Source: a virus. From it: a DNA stretch of 36,447 bases. The DNA is taken from positions 1 through 36,447 of the IMG/VR virus record IMGVR_UViG_3300020436_000032, one strand, 5' to 3'. Positions within the stretch are counted from its first letter, which is position 1. Every line of letters starts with the position of its first letter. Positions 4,236 through 30,182 of the stretch are shown piece after piece. The notes beneath the pieces are model-generated. The model worked only from the letters and a program-made list of their open reading frames with translations, searched no databases and was not told the DNA's origin. Position numbers and translations under genes: made by a program.

Positions 4236-4552
4236 TAGATAAATTTCACGCAGTTAAAGCTCTCTGCCCTGAAGCTAGATTTGGAGTACGGAATAATGAA
4301 GTTGTATGGAGAGATGAAAACATTAAGCAACCAACAGAAGAAGAAATAAACGACAAGATTGCTGAACTCCAAGCTGACTATGATGCTAAAAAGTACCAAC
4401 GTGACCGAGCTGCCAGTTACCCAGACCTCGCAGAACAATTTGACCTTCTTTGGCACGCAATAGACGATGGTAAGTTCAACGTAAAAAGTAAAGACACTGA
4501 TTTCTACAAGAAGTTGAAAGCAGTCAAGGATGCAAATCCTAAACCAGAATAA
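4232..4552 (+). CDS. Small fibre-associated protein (XkdW-like pattern)
   Basis: I take the ATG at 4232 because it overlaps the upstream stop as ATGA and gives a 106-residue protein beginning MIDKFHAVKALCPEARFGV; an in-frame start at 4208 would lie inside the previous gene. The sequence has two recognisable parts: N-terminal NNEVVWRDENIKQPTEEEI, then a helical stretch with YPDLAEQFDLLWHAIDDGKF and LKAVKDANPKPE. Short proteins with this pattern often follow fibre genes in marine phages and are sometimes labelled XkdW-like or fibre-assembly related. Direct coupling to the fibre gene suggests a partner or chaperone role comparable to the genes at 2787 and 9034. That function is inferred. Confidence 0.65.
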   Translation: MIDKFHAVKALCPEARFGVRNNEVVWRDENIKQPTEEEINDKIAELQADYDAKKYQRDRAASYPDLAEQFDLLWHAIDDGKFNVKSKDTDFYKKLKAVKDANPKPE

Positions 4553-4555
4553 ATA
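4548..4555 (+). promoter_or_regulatory. Possible late promoter AATAAATA
   Basis: AATAAATA differs from the T4 late consensus TATAAATA only at the first base and overlaps the stop codon of the upstream gene. The predicted start, six bases after the last A, would be near 4561, leaving a 14-base leader that still contains AGGA before the ATG at 4575. In an AT-rich genome a single 7/8 match can be chance. Confidence 0.35.
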
Positions 4556-4574
4556 TTAGAAAAATAGGAAAACT

Positions 4575-5030
4575 ATGGCAAATTTAATTATCAAACCAGC
4601 CAGTGCATCTGATGATCTTAAATTGCAGGATGGTGCTGGTGCTGATATTGTAACAGTAGATACAAACAATGTTCTCTTTGGAAAGGGTATTCAGGAGACT
4701 AAAGGTACATCTACAAACAGTACAAATGCAATTACAATTGACCTTGCAACTGGAAACTTTTTTGAGATAGATTTAGAGAATAATAATGCAACTGTAACTT
4801 CATGGACATTTAGTAATATGGCAGGTAACAATAAAGTTTCATCTTGGATTATTAAGTTCACTCAAGGATCTACCGCTCGTGCATTGACATATCCAGCTGC
4901 CGTTAAATGGTCAGGAGGAACAGATCATGTAATGTCAACTACAAATAATGCCGTTGATATTGTATCAATGTTTACCTTCAATAATGGTACAGACATTTAC
5001 GCAAACATTGTAGGAAAGGCCTTTGCATAA
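4575..5030 (+). CDS. Fibre-module virion protein upstream of Gly-rich tip
   Basis: This 151-residue protein begins MANLIIKPASASDDLKLQDG, a start common to small marine phage structural proteins that resemble the N-terminal attachment part of fibres. The body is beta-rich (FEIDLENNNATVTSWTFSN, KVSSWIIKFTQGSTARALTYP, ending DIYANIVGKAFA). There are no cysteines, membrane segments or catalytic motifs. It has an AGGA ribosome binding site, and its stop overlaps the next ATG as TAATG. It probably works with the glycine-rich protein immediately downstream as an attachment or adaptor piece. No precise T4 counterpart is evident. Confidence 0.6.
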   Translation: MANLIIKPASASDDLKLQDGAGADIVTVDTNNVLFGKGIQETKGTSTNSTNAITIDLATGNFFEIDLENNNATVTSWTFSNMAGNNKVSSWIIKFTQGSTARALTYPAAVKWSGGTDHVMSTTNNAVDIVSMFTFNNGTDIYANIVGKAFA

Positions 5031-6094
5031 TGTTAGCTAGTCACCAGCAAGATCAATTTAGTCCTTATATTTCAGGAGCTAATTCTACAGGAACATACAC
5101 ATACAACAATGTGTTATACAGATGGCATAAAATAACATCTTCAACAACTTTAGAAATTGCTCCAGGTCTAATGGATTTTCTTGTTATTGCCGGAGGCGGT
5201 GGAGGTGGAGCTGGCGGTGGTGAAGTAGGTGGAGGTTCCACTATTGGTGGATCGGGTGGTGGAGCTGGTGGTTTAGTTTGGCAAACTAATATATGGGTTA
5301 CTGGAACTTCAGGGGGCTTAGAGTGTATTGTAGGAAGTGGAGGAAATAGGGGTTTTGCGGCCCCACAACTTGACTATGATTTAACTGGAGAAAAAGGAGG
5401 AGATTCTATTTTAAAGATTGGTTCTGGTTATTCAGGTACGACAATTAATGTTACTGCTAAAGGTGGTGGCGGTGGCGGTGGAGCTTATGGAGGAATAGCA
5501 AATACTGATTTCACCGCTTCTCATTTAGATGGAGGTTCAGGAGGTGGGGCCGCTGTTAATGTTAATGGCGGAAGTGGTACAGAACAAGGATCTCGTGGAA
5601 TTGGTTCAGGATTACAACCTAGTCAATCTGGTTTAAGTGCTGGACTTGGAAATAATGCTTCTCCTGTTTATTATGGAGTATACAATGGTTCTGGAGGTGG
5701 TGGTTCTGGAGGTGCTGGTGGGGCTGTTACACATCAAGACAGTGGTGCGCCTGGAGCAGGAGGAACAGGCACTTCAACATTTATTAATAGTAATTCAGCT
5801 GAAACGACTGCATTTCTAAATGCAGCTTCTGCTGGAGTGGATGTTTCTAGTACTAGATATATTGCAGCTGGCGGTTCTGGGGGAGATGCAAGTCAAGGAT
5901 CTAATCATGCTGTTGCTGGAGGTAATGGTGGTGGTGGAGCTGGTCAAAGTGCAGTTAGTGGAGCTGCGGCCGCAGGTGCAGGGGTAGCAAATACTGGAAG
6001 TGGTGGCGGTGGAGGTGCTGGTAATGGAAATGGAGCAAATGGTAGAGCTGGAGATGGTGGTTCAGGAATTATAATAATTAGATATAAAATATAA
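5030..6094 (+). CDS. Glycine-rich adhesin/tip protein
   Basis: This 354-residue protein has an N-terminal beta segment (YTYNNVLYRWHKITSSTTLEI, then DFLVIAGGGGGGAGGG). Many glycine runs follow (for example KGGGGGGGAYGG and NGSGGGGSGGAGGA), and it ends in GDGGSGIIIIRYKI. Glycine runs separated by variable loops are the hallmark of polyglycine-sandwich adhesins such as the gp38-type tips of T-even phages, in which the loops contact the receptor. The ending GxGGSGxxIIRY is seen on many phage Gly-rich proteins. The start overlaps the upstream stop (TAATG), consistent with a two-gene attachment module. Homology to gp38 itself is not claimed, since low-complexity glycine runs can arise independently. 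Confidence 0.65.
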   Translation: MLASHQQDQFSPYISGANSTGTYTYNNVLYRWHKITSSTTLEIAPGLMDFLVIAGGGGGGAGGGEVGGGSTIGGSGGGAGGLVWQTNIWVTGTSGGLECIVGSGGNRGFAAPQLDYDLTGEKGGDSILKIGSGYSGTTINVTAKGGGGGGGAYGGIANTDFTASHLDGGSGGGAAVNVNGGSGTEQGSRGIGSGLQPSQSGLSAGLGNNASPVYYGVYNGSGGGGSGGAGGAVTHQDSGAPGAGGTGTSTFINSNSAETTAFLNAASAGVDVSSTRYIAAGGSGGDASQGSNHAVAGGNGGGGAGQSAVSGAAAAGAGVANTGSGGGGGAGNGNGANGRAGDGGSGIIIIRYKI

Positions 6095-6106
6095 TCAGAG
6101 AAATTC

Positions 6107-9034
6107 ATGGCATTTTCAAAAGTAAAAGCAGGAGGACTTGCAGATAATTCAGTTGGTTCCTCGCAAATTTCGCCAGATACAGTAGTTGCATCTGATATTG
6201 CTGCCAATGCTGTCACAGCCTCAGAACTTGCCGACAATGCAGTAGACACGGATGCAATTGCAGCTAATGCAGTTGTTACTGCAAAGATTGCAGATTCTAC
6301 TGGTGCATCTGATGGTATTACTACTGCAAAACTCGCAACGAATGCAGTCACTACAGCAAAGATAACAGATGCAAATATTACAACTGCAAAGGTAGCAAAT
6401 AGTGCAATTACTTCATTAAAACTAGGGGATGTAATTGATACTGTACCTCACATCATTCCTGGCGTTTTGCAACCAGCTATTGCTGGAAAACTTCTGAATG
6501 GTGCTAATCATTCTGGTGCATACGGAACTCCACAAACCCAATCTGGTGGTGACGGCCACAGTTACTACTATACCGATATCAAAGGTTCAAAACCAATCAA
6601 AGACCCTAGAATCGGTGCATACTTTGGGTCACAGAGGCACAAAGCTAAATCAATTCAGTTATTAGAACAAGAAACTGCGCTCCACGGGCAAGATGTTTAT
6701 TCAATTGATGGCAGAGAATGGATGAGAGTTACTGGTCCAGATATTAGATCATATTACAACGATAATACTACAGGCAATGTAGGAACTGCAACGCAAGGAA
6801 CCGCAGGGACATTTATAGAAATAGTAGGATATTTTAGTGATGCTAATTATATCCAAGATACACACACAGCTGAAAGAAATATAATTACATCAGTTGATGG
6901 AGGAAGTACAAATACAAATTCTTCTTTTGTGACGAGTGTCGGTAGTCCTTTAAGTGGAAGATGCGTTGATGAAGCTAGCGTGGGACATCTAAACCTTCCT
7001 AGTACGCATTCTACATCTTTAGGGATACACACCTTAAAAATTAATTGGCCTGCGAGTAATTATCCTTATTTTTTTGGTATTGAACTAATCGCCCAAGATA
7101 CTACTTCAACCGCAAGACGTAGTGAAATAAAAATTCCTAAACAAAATGTTGTTTCTTTTGGTAAGAAATTTGAGGTAGGTTCTGATGATTTGGATAATGC
7201 AGTACATCCACACTACGATCCGTTTACCACTATGTCCTATGGTGGTTCTGGAACTACTGCCTCGGCACTAGCAAATCTTATTGATACTGCAACTTCTCTA
7301 GGAATGGACAATTGGAAAGCTGGAGGGGATAATTTTCATAGACCTTGGAATGGGGGCAGAGTCATTAAGTGGGTCGATAGTTCTGGGACAATAAAAACTT
7401 CAGTAAATATGATGCCACCTAATGCACAAAACATAGGAACTACGGCATCAAATCCAGTATCAAATACAGAGGTTGTAGCAGGAACAAATGGAGAAACGAT
7501 TAACTTTAATACAAGTGCAATAGACCACTCACAAGCAGAAGTAGCCAAGACTTGGAACTGTTATGAGTTTGGGAATGGGAATGCCAATGGAGGGCATGAT
7601 GGTCCTTATAAAGATGCCACTATGTTAGATGCTTCAGGGTTCGATGACATAGCCTATGTGATGGATGATGGTTTATCTTCACTTGTAATTGACAATGCTA
7701 GACAATATGACCTTGGAGAAGGTATTTATTTAGAAGCTTCAAAATCTGGTTATATAACTTTCATAGGAACTGGTATCTCTATTTATTCAAGCAATTCAGG
7801 TGTCGAGGCTACTAAGCATATAGCACAAAATTTGCATTACGGAACTCATGTTTTAAAAATAACAACTGCAGCTTCTCATAATGTCACAACACTAACTTTA
7901 GATGGAGTGCAATTAAACTCAAGTGCTACTCACTTTGTGTATGCACATTTTGAAGACATAACTTTCCACCAACCCAAACGCCCACCAATCCCTGAAGATT
8001 GCGTAGTGCTAGCTGACTATATGCTGATGGCAGATTTTGTTCCTACAACTTCAGTAGATGGTTCAATATCTAAAGGGGTAAGATACTGTAATGCTAGCAG
8101 AGATGTGTTTTATGATTCTGCCGCGGCACTTACTTATAACGCTGGATATCCATCTTTGGGTTATCAAGGGGTTAGTTTTTATAACAATAATGCTAATAAC
8201 GAAGCAAGGATAACAGCATTTGGTTCTGCTTATGAGAGTCATTATGTCAGAGGAACAAATCGTGTATCAAATACCCAAGCAAGATTAGATGGTTCAAACT
8301 ATAGTTATGTTGAAGCTGATGTTTACGATACTGGTGGTGAATGGGATGATACAAATGATGACGGAACTCTTACTAAAGCTGGTTCAGAAGCATTTCATAT
8401 GTATGGAATTAAAAACCAAACATTAGGAGTACATACTTTTGGAGATAAGAATTCTTCAGGTAGTGACTACAATGCTTGGAGTGCTTTTGCAGTTGCTACG
8501 CCAATTCATACTTCGTCCCACTACCAAGCCTTTGAAACCCCATTTCTTCATGAGTTAGTTGGGGGTGACAGAAATGTGGAACAAACCAATTTGATTTGTA
8601 CTCCAGACGGCAAGACATGGGATGAGGTAACTAGGGATACGAGTTATATAGGGTCTGCTTGTGTAAGTGCTGGAGGTGGGCCAGATAATGATAGTTCTTC
8701 AGGTGCAATTGTACTAACTGAATATAGAGGGGCACTTAATCCTAGTTCAGCGGTTAAAGATTTATTTAATAAAAACTGGGCCATTGCGTATGATCGTTTT
8801 ATATGTTTAAAAACTGGATATTATTTGATTCATTATACTATTAAACATACTAATAATTCTTCTGAAACATACATATACAGAAATTCTGGAACAATAGCAG
8901 CTCATCCTACTATAAATGGGGCAGTAAATATGGCAGGGGCGCATTATTTTTCTAGGGGAGATGTTTTGAGATTAGAAGGTGTGTGGGATGACAATGACTT
9001 TTACAATTATTTTCAAATAACAGAATTAAAATAA
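6107..9034 (+). CDS. Long tail fibre protein B (paralogue of fibre A)
   Basis: This is a complete 975-residue protein. Residues 1-110 are an Ala-rich shaft repeat (SDIAANAVTASELADNAVD and similar). The middle carries the blocks YYYTDIKGSKPIKDPRIGA, LLEQETALHG, SIDGREWMRVTG, GIELIAQDTTSTARRSEIKI, NGGRVIKWVD and RPPIPEDCVVLADYML. The hinge FETPFLHELVGGDRN and PDGKTWDEVTRDTSYI follows, and then about 140 residues that differ from fibre A but keep a similar outline (DRFICLKTGYYLIHYT, FSRGDVLRLEGV). The last segment looks like a C1q/TNF-type jelly roll and would be the receptor-binding tip. Its stop overlaps the ATG of its small partner gene (TAATG at 9032-9036). Carrying two such fibres suggests a broadened or switchable receptor range. 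Confidence 0.85.
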   Translation: MAFSKVKAGGLADNSVGSSQISPDTVVASDIAANAVTASELADNAVDTDAIAANAVVTAKIADSTGASDGITTAKLATNAVTTAKITDANITTAKVANSAITSLKLGDVIDTVPHIIPGVLQPAIAGKLLNGANHSGAYGTPQTQSGGDGHSYYYTDIKGSKPIKDPRIGAYFGSQRHKAKSIQLLEQETALHGQDVYSIDGREWMRVTGPDIRSYYNDNTTGNVGTATQGTAGTFIEIVGYFSDANYIQDTHTAERNIITSVDGGSTNTNSSFVTSVGSPLSGRCVDEASVGHLNLPSTHSTSLGIHTLKINWPASNYPYFFGIELIAQDTTSTARRSEIKIPKQNVVSFGKKFEVGSDDLDNAVHPHYDPFTTMSYGGSGTTASALANLIDTATSLGMDNWKAGGDNFHRPWNGGRVIKWVDSSGTIKTSVNMMPPNAQNIGTTASNPVSNTEVVAGTNGETINFNTSAIDHSQAEVAKTWNCYEFGNGNANGGHDGPYKDATMLDASGFDDIAYVMDDGLSSLVIDNARQYDLGEGIYLEASKSGYITFIGTGISIYSSNSGVEATKHIAQNLHYGTHVLKITTAASHNVTTLTLDGVQLNSSATHFVYAHFEDITFHQPKRPPIPEDCVVLADYMLMADFVPTTSVDGSISKGVRYCNASRDVFYDSAAALTYNAGYPSLGYQGVSFYNNNANNEARITAFGSAYESHYVRGTNRVSNTQARLDGSNYSYVEADVYDTGGEWDDTNDDGTLTKAGSEAFHMYGIKNQTLGVHTFGDKNSSGSDYNAWSAFAVATPIHTSSHYQAFETPFLHELVGGDRNVEQTNLICTPDGKTWDEVTRDTSYIGSACVSAGGGPDNDSSSGAIVLTEYRGALNPSSAVKDLFNKNWAIAYDRFICLKTGYYLIHYTIKHTNNSSETYIYRNSGTIAAHPTINGAVNMAGAHYFSRGDVLRLEGVWDDNDFYNYFQITELK

Positions 9035-9507
9035 TGTTTATAGCAGTAAAAAACTCAAAAGTAATAGCTATTCATGGAACAGAATGGCAGTGCAGAAGAA
9101 AGGCTAAAGGTCTATCAAAACCTGCTTATTGGACTTGGCTTGAATCGGTTACTACTGAAGGTGTACCAGATTATTCTGGTGAAGACTACGAGATTGTAGA
9201 AACAGATGCACCTTTGTCTTATTCATTCAATGATTCTGGTCACATACACCAAGACGGAACTTTCTCTCTCAAATGGGATGGAACAAAAATAGTCAAAGAC
9301 GATACCGCTAAGGCTGAATGGGAACTGGCAGAAGAATGGAAAAGAATCAGAATACAAAGAAACAGACTCCTTGCAGAAACCGATTACCTAGCACTTAAAG
9401 ACAATACTCTCTCTACAGCTATGAAGGAATACAGAGACAAATTAAGGTCAGTTCCACAGGATAATAGTGACCCCTATAACATAACTTGGCCTACTAAACC
9501 TTCCTAA
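9034..9507 (+). CDS. Tail assembly chaperone-like protein, partner of fibre B
   Basis: This 157-residue paralogue of the protein at 2787-3332 shares MFIAVKNSKVIAIHGTEW, YWTWLESVTTE, GEDYEIVETDAPLSY and LKWDGTKIVKDDTAKA. The C-terminus has the chaperone-type signature IRIQRNRLLAETDYLALKD...YRDKLRSVP...ITWPTKP. It lacks the roughly 14-residue insertion of its paralogue. Its start codon overlaps the fibre B stop, so the two are almost certainly translated together. A 41-base stretch is identical to the paralogous gene, showing a recent duplication or gene conversion. The function as a fibre-specific assembly factor is inferred from family and position. Confidence 0.75.
   Translation: MFIAVKNSKVIAIHGTEWQCRRKAKGLSKPAYWTWLESVTTEGVPDYSGEDYEIVETDAPLSYSFNDSGHIHQDGTFSLKWDGTKIVKDDTAKAEWELAEEWKRIRIQRNRLLAETDYLALKDNTLSTAMKEYRDKLRSVPQDNSDPYNITWPTKPS
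9265..9305 (+). repeat. 41-bp exact repeat, copy 2
   Basis: Second copy of the block at 3069-3109, in the same orientation and reading frame. The copies are 6196 bases apart and bracket the intervening fibre genes. Homologous recombination between them would delete or exchange the genes between. Confidence 0.9.
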
Positions 9508-9525
9508 TATACTTCTCTAATCGTC

Positions 9526-9559
9526 AACCCTTATAAATATTTAAACATTTATGAGGGTT
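9526..9559 (+). promoter_or_regulatory. Hairpin covering the ribosome binding site of gene 9564
   Basis: Bases 9526-9538 (AACCCTTATAAAT) pair with 9547-9559 (ATTTATGAGGGTT) over 13 base pairs, 12 Watson-Crick and one G-U, with an 8-base loop. The Shine-Dalgarno GAGGG (9553-9557) lies fully in the right arm. The late promoter lies mostly in the left arm, so late transcripts start in the loop and cannot form the hairpin, while read-through transcripts from the fibre genes can. There is no T-run after it, so it is a poor terminator candidate. Confidence 0.6.
9532..9539 (+). promoter_or_regulatory. Late promoter TATAAATA
   Basis: Exact match to the T4 late promoter recognised by gp55. If the element spans -13 to -6 as in T4, transcription starts at about 9545, giving a 19-base leader with the GAGGG ribosome binding site before the ATG at 9564. 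Confidence 0.75.
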
Positions 9560-9563
9560 TAAC

Positions 9564-9902
9564 ATGGCGGTCATTTCAAATATATTCATTGATGCAGGAG
9601 CAGACTATAGTACAACTGTAACAGTTACAGATAGTACTGGTAGTGCTCTGGATCTTACAGGATACTCAGCTGCAGCACAAATTCGTAAGACTTACGAATC
9701 CACAACTGCTACAGTTTCATTCACAATTGCATTCAACTCAGATCGAACTACAGGTAAGTTCGATATGTCTTTGACCTCTACACAAACAGGTGCAATCCCT
9801 CATGGAAGATATGTTTATGATGCACTCATAACTTCTGGTTCTGGAACAAAGACCAGAGTGGTTGAGGGAATAGTAACAGTTAATCCAAGGGTAACTCAGT
9901 AA
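9564..9902 (+). CDS. Small virion protein, BppU N-terminal-like fold
   Basis: This is a 112-residue protein. The pattern [34 protein letters not shown] and [12 protein letters not shown] is the beta-sandwich signature seen in phage baseplate/fibre-attachment proteins resembling the BppU N-terminal domain. Its start has a good GAGGG ribosome binding site that is buried in a hairpin in read-through transcripts, and a late promoter lies directly upstream. The stop overlaps the next ATG (TAATG at 9900-9904), linking it to the collagen-like protein. It probably forms the attachment base for the downstream fibre proteins. There is no obvious T4 counterpart. Confidence 0.6.
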
Positions 9903-11038
9903 TGCCTATAACTGCACAAATAACAGATAATAACGCAAGTTCTATAAAAGGAACTTCAACAACCCCTGCAAATGTAGCGGCATCTACTTCTGTAGGTGTA
10001 CAACCATCTATTACACGAATGGCGGTTCCTGGCGTCAGAGGTGCAGATGGAGATATTACATGGCAGGGAACTTGGAGTTCTTCAACCACTTATACACAAA
10101 ACAACGCAATACATTATAATGGTAGTTCGTATGTAGCACTTCAAGGTAATTCTAATGTTCGTCCAGACACAGATTCTACTGTATGGTCACTTATGGTTCA
10201 AAAAGGTGATACTGGAGATACAGGAGCAACTGGAGCTGTGGGACCAGCTGGTTCTACAGGAGCAACTGGAGCTACAGGTGCAACTGGAGCCACTGGACCT
10301 ACAGGATTAACTGGTTCTCAAGGGCCTCAGGGACCACAAGGACCACAAGGAGATGCAGGAACAGCGGCAACAGTTCAAGTAGGGTCTGTTTCTGCAAGTG
10401 CAGCTGGTTCTAATCCTACAGTAACGAACTCTGGTTCTTCTACCGCAGCTGTTTTAAACTTCTCATTACCAAGAGGTGCAACTGGTCCTCAAGGAGCTCA
10501 AGGTGTTACTGGAGCGGCTGGAGCTCAAGGAGCAGACGGAGCTCAGGGTGCAACTGGTCCTCAAGGACCACAAGGAAATACAGGAAATGCAGCTACGATT
10601 GCAGTTGGAACAGTATCCACTGGACTTGCAGGGTCTAATGTAATAGTAACAAACTCTGGTTCAACATCTGCAGCTACTTTAGACTTCACAATACCTAGAG
10701 GAGATACAGGAGCCTCAGGGTCTTTTACTTGGAAAAGTACTTGGAGTTCTGCAACTGCATATGGTGCCAACGAAGTGGTTGCATACAATGGAACATCATA
10801 TATTGCAGTAGTAAATAATCAAAATGTAAGACCAGACACAGACTCTACAAAATGGAATATTATGGCACAAGCGGGTGCAGAAGGTGGTTCTATTAGTTCT
10901 ATGGAGGACACACAAATAAGTGGTACAGTCGCAGACATGGCAATTTTAGCATACGATAGTAATGGAACAAAGTGGAAAGATAATAACACGTTCTCAGGAA
11001 CATTTGCCTCACCAATTTTGTCAGGTGGTACTTTTTAA
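9902..11038 (+). CDS. Collagen-like fibre with two carbohydrate-binding-like modules
   Basis: This is a 378-residue modular protein. Residues about 53-99 and 276-323 are two copies of a module with W-x-G/S-T-W-S-S, AxxYNGxSYxA and [11 protein letters not shown], resembling small chitin/carbohydrate-binding modules (CBM5/12-like). Residues about 102-153 and 192-229 are Gly-X-Y collagen-like repeats ([29 protein letters not shown]). Between them is a duplicated beta segment ([20 protein letters not shown] and [20 protein letters not shown]). Such proteins form trimeric rods on virions. The sugar-binding modules suggest reversible attachment to host or particle polysaccharide. The C-terminus ends in SGGTF. 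The start overlaps the previous stop. Substrate specificity cannot be told. Confidence 0.75.
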
Positions 11039-23372: not shown

Positions 23373-23900
23373 ATGGCAACAATTAATGATTTTAAAGCAG
23401 TTCTCGCAGGAGGTGGTGCTCGTGCGAATCAGTTTCAAGTTACAATGCCTTTTCCAGGCTTTGCAGCTGCAGGAGGAGAGACAAGAGTTATGTCTTTTCT
23501 TTGCAGGACTACAAACTTGCCAGGAATGACATTAGGTGAGGTTCCTGTTCCTTTCAGAGGGCGTCAGTTGTATATTGCTGGTGACCGAACTTTTGAAACA
23601 TGGACTACAACCATCATGAATGACACTGATTTTCTAATTCGTAATGCGATGGAGAGATGGATGAATGCCATCAATGCATTGTCCGATAATAGTGGACTTG
23701 AAAACCCTTCAGACTATCAAGTTGATGCTTTTGTTGACCAACTGGATAGAGCTGGAGAAGCTATCAAGTCGTATACTTTTAGAGGTTTGTTTCCACAAAC
23801 AATCGCTCCAATTGAATTAGCGTATGACACTAATGATGCTGTTGAGGAATTTGAAGTAACATATCGTTACCAATTTTTTGAAACCAATACAACCAGTTAA
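23373..23900 (+). CDS. 19: Tail tube protein gp19
   Basis: This is a 175-residue protein (T4 gp19 is 163). The blocks RANQFQVTMPFPGF, TNLPGMTLGEVPVPFRGRQL, YIAGDRTFETWTTTIMNDTD and YTFRGLFPQTIAPIELAYDT are diagnostic of T4 tail tube subunits. It forms the inner tube through which DNA is ejected. A near-perfect AAGGAGG site lies five bases before the start, which suggests high expression, as expected for a protein needed in over a hundred copies. It lies directly after the sheath gene. Confidence 0.96.
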   Translation: MATINDFKAVLAGGGARANQFQVTMPFPGFAAAGGETRVMSFLCRTTNLPGMTLGEVPVPFRGRQLYIAGDRTFETWTTTIMNDTDFLIRNAMERWMNAINALSDNSGLENPSDYQVDAFVDQLDRAGEAIKSYTFRGLFPQTIAPIELAYDTNDAVEEFEVTYRYQFFETNTTS

Positions 23901-23904
23901 TAAT

Positions 23905-23937
23905 CCGTATAAATATTTACTACGTGAATAAATACGG
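23905..23937 (+). promoter_or_regulatory. Hairpin overlapping late promoter and portal ribosome binding site
   Basis: CCGTAT (23905-23910) pairs with ATACGG (23932-23937), and TATTTAC (23914-23920) pairs with GTGAATA (23924-23930, one G-U), with a small internal loop and a 3-base apical loop. The right arm takes in the first bases of the GGAG ribosome binding site (23936-23939). The left arm is the late promoter, and the predicted start (23921) is in the loop, so late mRNA lacks the left arm. Confidence 0.5.
23908..23915 (+). promoter_or_regulatory. 20: Late promoter TATAAATA for gene 20
   Basis: Exact T4-type late promoter in the 43-base gap between genes 19 and 20. With T4 spacing, transcription begins at about 23921, giving a 23-base leader to the ATG at 23944. 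Confidence 0.75.
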
Positions 23938-23943
23938 AGTGTT

Positions 23944-28136: not shown

Positions 28137-29543
28137 ATGTACAATGCAGAACAACTCCAAGAAAAGTGGCAACCAGTTTTGAATCATCCCGATCTCCCAG
28201 AGATCACAGATTCTTATAAACGAGCTGTTACCTCAGTTATCTTGGAAAACCAAGAGCGTGAACTCAAAGAGACACGTTCAATGTTGGCGGAAGCTGACAT
28301 GGCCGCAAGTGCAGCTGCTACGTTTGACCCAGTATTGATTTCACTGGTTCGCCGTGCAATGCCTAACTTGATGGCTTATGATGTTTGTGGTGTTCAACCA
28401 ATGAGTGGACCTACAGGACTCATCTTTGCCATGAAGGCACGTTATGGTGGTGGAGACACAGGATTCACCGAAGCTCTCTTTGATGGTGCTGAAACTTCTG
28501 CCAGTGGTAAGGGAGGTACAGGAGCTGATGGTAAACAAGTCGGTTCAAACCCAGGCGTTCTTAACGATTCTGGTGCAACTGCTCCTCAATCAGTTGATGG
28601 AGGTTCACCAGACGGAAGTTACAACGTCAGAGCTGGTATGTCTTTATCAGACGCTGAAGGTCTTAGTGGTGGTTCAACTGGTTCAGATGACCCAAGCCCC
28701 CCAACTGGTGATTTCCCAGGCACAAACTCTAGTGCTAAAGCTGGGGAATTTCAGGACATGGGTTTCACCATTGAGAAAACTCAAGTTACTGCAAGGACAC
28801 GTGCCTTGCGTGCTGGGTACACAATGGAACTTGCACAAGACCTGAAAGCTATTCATGGTCTGGATGCAGAATCCGAATTGTCTAACATTCTCTCAACTGA
28901 AATCCTTGCTGAAATCAATCGTGAGGTTGTTCGTTCAATCTACACAGTTGCTAAAAAAGGTGCTCTGGGAGTAACCGCTGACGGAATATTTGACCTTGAT
29001 ACAGATTCAAATGGTCGATGGTCAGTAGAGAAGTTCAAAGGACTTCTTTTCCAAATTGAGCGTGATTGTAACGCTATCGGAATCGAAACACGAAGAGGAA
29101 AAGGTAATATCCTCATGTGTTCAGCTGACGTAGCTTCCGCTCTGTCAATGGCCGGTGTTCTGGACTATGCTCCAAATATGTCAACAAATCTTAATGTTGA
29201 CACAACTGGAAATACTTTTGCCGGAACAATCAATGGACGAATTAAGGTCTATGTTGACCCATATGAGTCTCTTGCAAGTGGTGCCGGAAACTGGTATGTA
29301 GCTGGGTATCGTGGTGCTTCTGCTTATGATGCAGGACTGTTCTACTGCCCATACGTTCCATTGCAAATGGTTCGTGCGATTGGAGAAAATGACTTCCAGC
29401 CAAAAATTGCGTTTAAAACACGTTATGGAATGGCCGAGAATCCATTTGCTCGTTCATCAATCCCAACAAACATTGATGTTAATGCTCTTGCTCCTTCTGC
29501 GAATGTTTACTATCGCAGAGCTCGAGTGAACAATATCATGTAA
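28137..29543 (+). CDS. 23: Major capsid protein gp23
   Basis: This 468-residue protein (T4 gp23 is 521) has the N-terminus MYNAEQLQEKWQPVLNHPDL and conserved blocks TFDPVLISLVRRAMPNLMAY, DVCGVQPMSGPTGLIFAMKA and RAGYTMELAQDLKAIHGLDA. It also has GNILMCSADVASALSMAGVL and GLFYCPYVPLQMVRAIGEND, all standard for T4-type capsid proteins used in marine surveys. A gp21 consensus site L50-A-E52 followed by Ala53 suggests removal of a 52-residue propeptide. A Gly/Ser/Asp-rich loop (about residues 115-200) corresponds to the variable insertion domain. A GGAG site lies six bases before the ATG, and a strong hairpin follows the stop. Confidence 0.98.
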   Translation: MYNAEQLQEKWQPVLNHPDLPEITDSYKRAVTSVILENQERELKETRSMLAEADMAASAAATFDPVLISLVRRAMPNLMAYDVCGVQPMSGPTGLIFAMKARYGGGDTGFTEALFDGAETSASGKGGTGADGKQVGSNPGVLNDSGATAPQSVDGGSPDGSYNVRAGMSLSDAEGLSGGSTGSDDPSPPTGDFPGTNSSAKAGEFQDMGFTIEKTQVTARTRALRAGYTMELAQDLKAIHGLDAESELSNILSTEILAEINREVVRSIYTVAKKGALGVTADGIFDLDTDSNGRWSVEKFKGLLFQIERDCNAIGIETRRGKGNILMCSADVASALSMAGVLDYAPNMSTNLNVDTTGNTFAGTINGRIKVYVDPYESLASGAGNWYVAGYRGASAYDAGLFYCPYVPLQMVRAIGENDFQPKIAFKTRYGMAENPFARSSIPTNIDVNALAPSANVYYRRARVNNIM

Positions 29544-29549
29544 TCACTC

Positions 29550-29576
29550 TTGAGAGGGGATTTATTCCCCTCTCAA
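29550..29576 (+). terminator. Hairpin terminator after gene 23
   Basis: TTGAGAGGGGA (29550-29560) pairs perfectly over 11 bp with TCCCCTCTCAA (29566-29576) around a TTTAT loop, seven bases after the gp23 stop. No clear T-run follows, so it may act partly as an mRNA 3'-end stabiliser. A new late promoter begins six bases downstream. Confidence 0.7.
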
Positions 29577-29582
29577 ATCCCA

Positions 29583-29606: not shown

Positions 29607-30182
29607 ATGGCCGATACAAGTCAACCCACAGTTTTAGATTACGCTTCACAAACTACTTGGAGAATTCGTTTCAATCGAATTACTAAGGTCGAATGGTTTT
29701 GTACAAATGTTAATCTTCCAGGCATAAATCTTGGAGAAGCTTTGTTTCCTACTCCACTTTCAGATACCTATGTTGCAGGAGACAAATTGACATTTGAGAC
29801 TCTTAATATAACTTTTCTGGTGGATGAGGAACTACAAAACTATAGAGAACTATGGGATTGGATTGTTGGAGTTGGATTTCCAAAACAACATTCACAGTTT
29901 TCTTCTGTTCTTTCAAGTGGTTCAAATCCTGGCGGAACATTGACTGCATCGAATAGAGTAGGAAATACAGTAACCACTCCAAGTGATAGACCAGTATACG
30001 ATGAAGCTACATTGATAATTTACAATTCAAAAAACATACCGAAAGTTGAAGTAGCATTCAAAGACATTTTTCCAACAAGTCTTTCTGGACTTGCATATGC
30101 TCAAGATGCTACAGATGTTGAATATTTTAAAGCGGACGCTACTTTTAGATTCATGTATTATGAGTTTAAAAATGCCACATAA
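29607..30182 (+). CDS. Second tail-tube-fold protein (gp19-like)
   Basis: This is a 191-residue protein. The blocks WFCTNVNLPGINLGEALFPT, YVAGDKLTFETLNITFLVDE and YRELWDWIVGVGFP follow the tail-tube pattern (LPGI.LGE..., AGD...F.....). They are distinct from gp19 at 23373, with a ten-residue-plus insertion and a different C-terminus (TFRFMYYEFKNAT). In marine T4-like phages the slot after gene 23 usually carries the tail-tip or tail-completion gene (gp3 position). Related tube folds also occur in T4 gp48 and gp54. I interpret it as a tube-related protein, either a tube cap or baseplate-tube junction subunit. Its exact counterpart is uncertain. It has its own late promoter. Confidence 0.7.
   Translation: MADTSQPTVLDYASQTTWRIRFNRITKVEWFCTNVNLPGINLGEALFPTPLSDTYVAGDKLTFETLNITFLVDEELQNYRELWDWIVGVGFPKQHSQFSSVLSSGSNPGGTLTASNRVGNTVTTPSDRPVYDEATLIIYNSKNIPKVEVAFKDIFPTSLSGLAYAQDATDVEYFKADATFRFMYYEFKNAT

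Follow-up and report, generated by a model that had tools for sequence, protein, structure and literature searches.

Translational control by the choice of promoter is documented for gene e of phage T4. There a hairpin masks the ribosome-binding site (RBS) and has the late promoter in its 5′ strand, such that the long early RNA is silent (≈ 100-fold) while the late RNA is translated (PMC3014915). RNA structures sequestering the RBS have also been described for T4 49, 26, soc, I-TevI, I-TevII and segB and for mobE of phage Aeh1 (PMC2988022, PMC3014915); in the endonuclease cases, late promoters are located near the sequestering structure (PMC2988022, PMC3014915). Switches of this kind are known from T4, close T-evens and the Aeromonas phage Aeh1 (PMC3014915, PMC2988022). 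Late transcription in T4 starts about one helical turn past the TATA box (PMC2988020), and the late motif of the cyanophage S-PM2 is NATAAATA (PMC2984593).

The stretch of DNA analysed here (the window, 36,447 nucleotides; genes are named by their first position) derives from an ocean phage of the T4 type, of whose genome it represents part; among its genes are those for tail fibres, portal, sheath, tube, scaffold and UvsY. The nearest named homologues of its gene 9564 are found in the Methylophilales phages Melnitz (66–70%), followed by pelagiphages and cyanophages, and by its sequence the phage is assigned to the Kyanoviridae/Melnitz-like T4-type phages. Upstream of gene 9564 a late promoter motif is nested in a hairpin that takes in the Shine-Dalgarno (SD) site, and this arrangement most probably represents a cis-acting translational switch governed by promoter choice.

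The nested element upstream of gene 9564

The features of the locus are as follows.

9034-9507, + strand: tail fibre assembly chaperone-like gene, immediately upstream; its transcript would enter the hairpin
9526-9559, + strand: 13-bp hairpin, with left arm 9526-9538, loop 9539-9546 (8 nt) and right arm 9547-9559
9532-9539, + strand: T4-type late promoter TATAAATA, exact motif, mostly within the left arm
9545, + strand: late transcription start as predicted from T4 geometry, within the loop
9553-9557, + strand: SD site GAGGG of gene 9564, in the right arm; the ATG of the gene is at 9564
9564-9902, + strand: putatively controlled gene, 112 aa, LtfC/T5 tail-tip (baseplate)-like β-sandwich protein

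The stem runs from A9526-U9559 to U9538-A9547 with a single U-G pair (9532-9553). A first-pass annotation of this DNA had described just such a 13-bp hairpin with one G-U pair, GAGGG in its right arm and TATAAATA mostly in its left arm, and both coordinates and pairing proved exact. The hairpin has an energy of −13.8 kcal/mol (z −4.9), which none of 200 dinucleotide shuffles equalled; a search of the window against Rfam returned no family. Taken singly, neither component is exceptional: hairpins as stable as this one are seen at 14 further + strand places in the window, and TATAAATA is not rarer than chance in such AT-rich DNA (4 found versus 2.7 expected). The motif alone, which shows no enrichment in the window, and hairpin stability alone, which is matched by comparable stems elsewhere, were consequently both dropped as evidence. 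What goes beyond chance is the combination of promoter and hairpin, and its conservation.

The genes immediately preceding gene 9564 encode tail fibres and proteins of fibre assembly. The product of gene 9564 matches the profiles phrog_1084 (4e-28) and phrog_3304 (1.5e-25), both of L-shaped tail fibre assembly, the match to Pfam LtfC (1e-4) being below the cut-off. The AlphaFold model, calculated with alignment rows from the window and related loci, has a pLDDT of 92 and matches tail-tip chains of T5/DT57C with Z 12, Ig-like chains ranking below. The predicted fold thus agrees with the baseplate-type gene of the first-pass annotation, a designation that fits. That such a switch would be unexpected before a baseplate-type gene was overstated, as T4 gene 26, which encodes a baseplate hub protein, had already been published (PMC2988022). 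The product of the next gene, 9902-11038, is a fibre with collagen repeats that matches the carbohydrate-binding module CBM_5_12.

Accessibility of the Shine-Dalgarno site

In a switch of the T4 type the hairpin includes the SD site or the start codon, and the hairpin of gene 9564 includes the former. The late start, itself a prediction from sequence and T4 geometry (PMC2988020), would fall downstream of the 5′ arm of this hairpin. On folding (energies for protein-free RNA at 37 °C), RNA of 9500-9600 forms the 9526-9559 stem, and RNA beginning at 9545 does not. The cost of opening the region from SD to AUG was chosen as the measure because accessibility of the SD hexamer alone understated Melnitz-type leaders; in the Melnitz relative, a clear release is seen for the SD-to-AUG region but not for the hexamer by itself. 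For gene 9564 this cost amounts to 17–18 kcal/mol for starts at 9440-9520 (16–18 kcal/mol over all lengths of read-through RNA tried), to 6 kcal/mol with an RNA start at 9530, and to ≈ 3 kcal/mol for every start from 9532 onward. As the SD is freed equally for all 5′ ends from 9532, the prediction is independent of the exact start, and a context of −400 to +120 leaves the predicted switch unchanged. The comparison of RNA with and without the left arm, one of the checks suggested in the first-pass annotation, therefore favours the switch.

For calibration, every gene with ATAAATA at promoter distance was scanned in 11 phage records (152 genes), a scan that requires the exact motif and an assumed promoter geometry. 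Gene 9564 gave the largest predicted switch, 15.8 kcal/mol, among these 152 late-promoter genes, the 11 records including three close relatives (the window, G004 and G005). The top four genes of T4 were I-TevII, e, 49 and 26, all of which have been reviewed as genes with RBS-sequestering structures (PMC3014915, PMC2988022), and no gene of HTVC008M, P-HM1 or Mosig passed. The T4 scan thus provides a blind positive control, and the empty records a negative one. The T4 precedent, for which the first-pass annotation named e and soc, is documented in the literature (PMC3014915, PMC2988022), and e was recovered; soc, like I-TevI, was not among the top hits of the exact-motif T4 scan. Under the shuffle control, T4 e and 49 reached only p 0.20 and 0.35, since this control is blunt where the arm lies inside the promoter.

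Conservation and covariation of the arms

Homologues of gene 9564 were collected from IMG/VR and phage records, and in 178 of the 193 with readable starts ATAAATA is present at most 66 nt ahead of the start codon. Nine other contigs carry the 34-nt element letter for letter, relatives with ≈ 73–76% identical protein (L031, L014) among them, while the DNA preceding it differs.

In a swap test, 38 leaders differing mutually in at least one arm were compared, each upstream arm being duplexed with every downstream part. The mean energy of the duplex with the own arm was −8.4 kcal/mol, versus −6.05 (sd 0.37) for permuted arms (z −6.2), and none of 100,000 permutations matched the cognate mean. A smaller test with 27 leaders gave z −5.6. 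Since SD and promoter are present in every permutation, shared features cannot explain this result. Along the same lines, 69 distinct leaders showed a mean switch of 7.1 kcal/mol, compared with 2.9 kcal/mol when the upstream arm was shuffled and the promoter kept (Wilcoxon, 1e-10); the switch was reached at p ≤ 0.05 in 44 of them, and the window clade gave 15.8 versus 6.2 kcal/mol. In this control, TATAAATA and the five bases next to it on the 3′ side were the sole part kept. An earlier version spared the final 20 nt of the leader, and with them most of the left arm, and so gave no information on the window clade.

The same layout recurs with wholly different arms, namely TATAACTCC/GGAGTTATA in L246, AAATCCCC/GGGGATTT in L039 and AACACAG...CCT/AGG...CTGTGTT in L183. 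Compensatory change in both arms, which the first-pass annotation had proposed as a check, is thus borne out by the swap test and by the 69-leader shuffle test and argues strongly that the pairing is maintained by selection. As relatives keep the pairing with different letters, the switch known from T4 very likely operates in marine phages too.

Alternative explanations for the hairpin

The alternative that survives best, although improbable, takes the hairpin as the intrinsic terminator of the fibre operon, overlapping the next promoter by chance. It could account for the lack of any other terminator found in 4400-9600, and in one sub-clade (L003, L004, L007 and L013) a stem AACCC...GGGTT is indeed followed by a T run. 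At the window hairpin, however, terminator prediction reports none, and just UUUAAC follows the GGG (TAAC after the stem), which is not a U tract. None of 29 leaders with a strong SD switch has five or more T in the eight bases past the stem, and none of 43 hairpin leaders scores on the + strand, in a test with loops of ≤ 8 that therefore leaves the L003 type outside; 15 of the 43 carry a separate upstream terminator yet keep the hairpin. What is conserved is that the SD region is paired; a U tract is not conserved.

In the L003-type leaders, seven T stand between the GGG of the right arm and the ATG, and a single element might here combine the functions of terminator, promoter and RBS lock. 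In L042 (2926-2940) and other leaders, terminator, late promoter and RBS hairpin are stacked within ≈ 120 bases before the gene 9564 homologue; judged by sequence, stacked terminator and RBS hairpin would form two barriers against upstream RNA.

With a still lower probability, the stem could protect or process RNA, be it the 3′ end of the fibre mRNA or the 5′ end of the tail-gene mRNA, the hiding of the SD being incidental. A precedent may be seen in the 36-bp inverted repeat of the S-PM2d psbA leader, which also has a gp55 site and is interpreted by its authors as an mRNA stability element (PMC5931967). But in one clade after another the right arm meets the SD region although its letters have changed, and the left arm stops before the presumed start, a position that a stability stem need not take. 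It is very unlikely that the inverted repeat is a DNA operator bound by a protein over the promoter, in analogy to autorepression by I-TevI, which binds an operator across its late promoter (PMC2988022). As might be expected of an operator, the palindrome has a single imperfect pair and is identical in nine close contigs; between clades, however, the arm letters vary freely while the pairing stays, which fits RNA pairing and not a single conserved binding sequence. A chance palindrome in an AT-rich leader, conceivable in view of the many equally stable hairpins and the unenriched TATAAATA, is hardly credible, since neither shuffles (0/200) nor arm permutations (0/100,000) did as well and the element is identical in contigs with ≈ 73–76% identical proteins, so that the comparative data exclude it. 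RNA stability, operator and chance are disfavoured because none of them predicts covariation placed on the SD.

Distribution and further hairpins of the same design

In the cyanophages and pelagiphages tested, the hairpin is absent, with the promoter retained in most: HTVC008M, P-HM1, S-T4, S-SRM01, DSL-LC02 and DSL-LC03 keep the late motif and show no pairing, and the exact late motif is missing in Mosig, S-CAM1 and the ACG-2014f record. Pairing is weak or lacking in the freshwater relatives L052, L058, L068, L070 and L078. In most of the annotated cyanophages, the gene preceding the gene 9564 homologue encodes a small virion protein, and no fibre cassette stands there. A protein tree of 77 rows, of poor resolution, requires ≈ 15 changes of the hairpin label. 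Absence of the pairing under a retained promoter had been named beforehand as an observation that would speak against the switch; it is encountered in the distant HTVC008M and several cyanophages, whereas the pairing is kept across a broad group. The pairing thus characterises one broad group, with gaps, rather than the family as a whole, and is widespread but not universal.

A second hairpin of the same design was located in the window.

23905-23937, + strand: second promoter/RBS hairpin, preceding the portal gene 23944
23908-23915, + strand: late promoter TATAAATA of the portal gene, inside the second hairpin
23935-23939, + strand: SD site CGGAG of the portal gene, at the second hairpin

The arms are CCGTAT...ATACGG, and the switch amounts to 9.2 kcal/mol, which none of 100 shuffles equalled. 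The close relatives G004 and G005 retain the hairpin with a changed loop. Portal-gene relatives at 55–62% identity seldom keep it, so the portal case is supported in close relatives only.

The strongest case in Melnitz-1 is that of gene 153.

MZ577095 75050-75111 (L178 1050-1112): hairpin preceding the start of gene 153 at 75111

This gene directly follows a tRNA-Leu gene; its product is gp5-like and combines an OB domain with a peptidase domain of the VanY-like kind. In its family, 13 distinct leaders switch by 11.6–20.6 kcal/mol, all beyond 60 shuffles, and the arms covary (AATCCCTTG/CAAGGGATT, CCCCTTT/AAAGGGG and AATCCTCTT/AAGAGGATT).

Two tail-tube-like genes (phrog_45) are present in the window, 23373-23900 and 29607-30182, of which one follows a late promoter and immediately precedes uvsY. 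A strong inverted repeat, TTGAGAGGGGA...TCCCCTCTCAA, at 29541-29580 around the end of gene 28137-29543, precedes CATAAATA and the second of these genes, 29607; the arrangement resembles a terminator with a late promoter next to it downstream. The tail-tube-like counterpart of Melnitz-1 (L179 3525-4094), after the major capsid gene, is preceded by an RBS hairpin of moderate strength, with a switch of 8.5 (p 0.05).

Proposed mechanism and role

Promoter activity, start site, read-through RNA, its translational silence and the benefit of the switch are putative parts of the following model. RNA entering from upstream would carry both arms, fold and hide the RBS, leaving gene 9564 silent on it. 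A late sigma/clamp system of the gp55/gp33/gp45 type would start RNA at the nested TATAAATA, in the loop, and this late RNA, without the left arm, would have a free RBS and be translated. The output of gene 9564 would thereby be bound to its own late promoter. Read-through into gene 9564 is plausible, since no intrinsic terminator was found within 4400-9600 and the nearest + strand late motif upstream of the element is at 4549; the absence of a terminator does no more than permit it.

The upstream genes, being tail genes, are themselves late, so that the purpose of the switch, timing or insulation, is a matter of interpretation. For the same reason insulation from fibre-operon RNA is the favoured role, early/late timing being the alternative: the switch would shield a tail gene that is conserved from preceding fibre genes that are variable. 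More tentatively, and with rather less than even confidence, promoter and hairpin may provide a general insulation among late genes of the marine group, uncoupling tail collar, portal and tail hydrolase from the RNA of variable or early neighbours. If insulation is indeed the role, the output of virion genes would be set by their own late promoters and not by timing alone.

Comparison with known systems

Our literature search found no report of such a switch for the gene 9564 family, Melnitz-like phages or Kyanoviridae. The Melnitz paper lists 15 late promoters, counted by motif matching and promoter prediction only, with hairpins unmentioned (PMC9004378). Motif-based operon maps of marine phages would overlook a layer at which the presence of RNA does not equal the production of protein. 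Covariation over dozens of marine and freshwater lineages points to a widespread, selected device, and provides a test for finding further cases from sequence.

In this context one should recall the leader of psbA in S-PM2d, likewise a marine T4-like phage, which has a long inverted repeat and a gp55 site (PMC5931967). Unlike at gene 9564, the repeat is ascribed to mRNA stability and light control, and the part of the source consulted mentions neither hiding of the RBS nor nesting of the promoter (PMC5931967). The gp5-like tail hydrolase gene of Melnitz parallels T4 gene e in that both encode cell-wall hydrolases. T4 49, 26 and I-TevII resemble gene 9564 in being recovered by the scan, gene 26 also as a baseplate hub gene; the T4 and Aeh1 cases differ from it in having no sequence relation and in their genes, hosts and phage family.

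The closest counterpart is T4 gene e, recovered by the scan as well, with its late promoter nested in the 5′ arm of the RBS hairpin. T4 e, however, is a coliphage lysis gene reached by early RNA and served by two late promoters, whereas gene 9564 encodes a structural protein of the tail and is preceded by late fibre genes. As the upstream genes of the window are tail genes, the early/late rationale of e is not directly transferable. Thus, the predicted switch of gene 9564, well supported by sequence evolution, adds a case to a known type of control, and its mechanism is not new.
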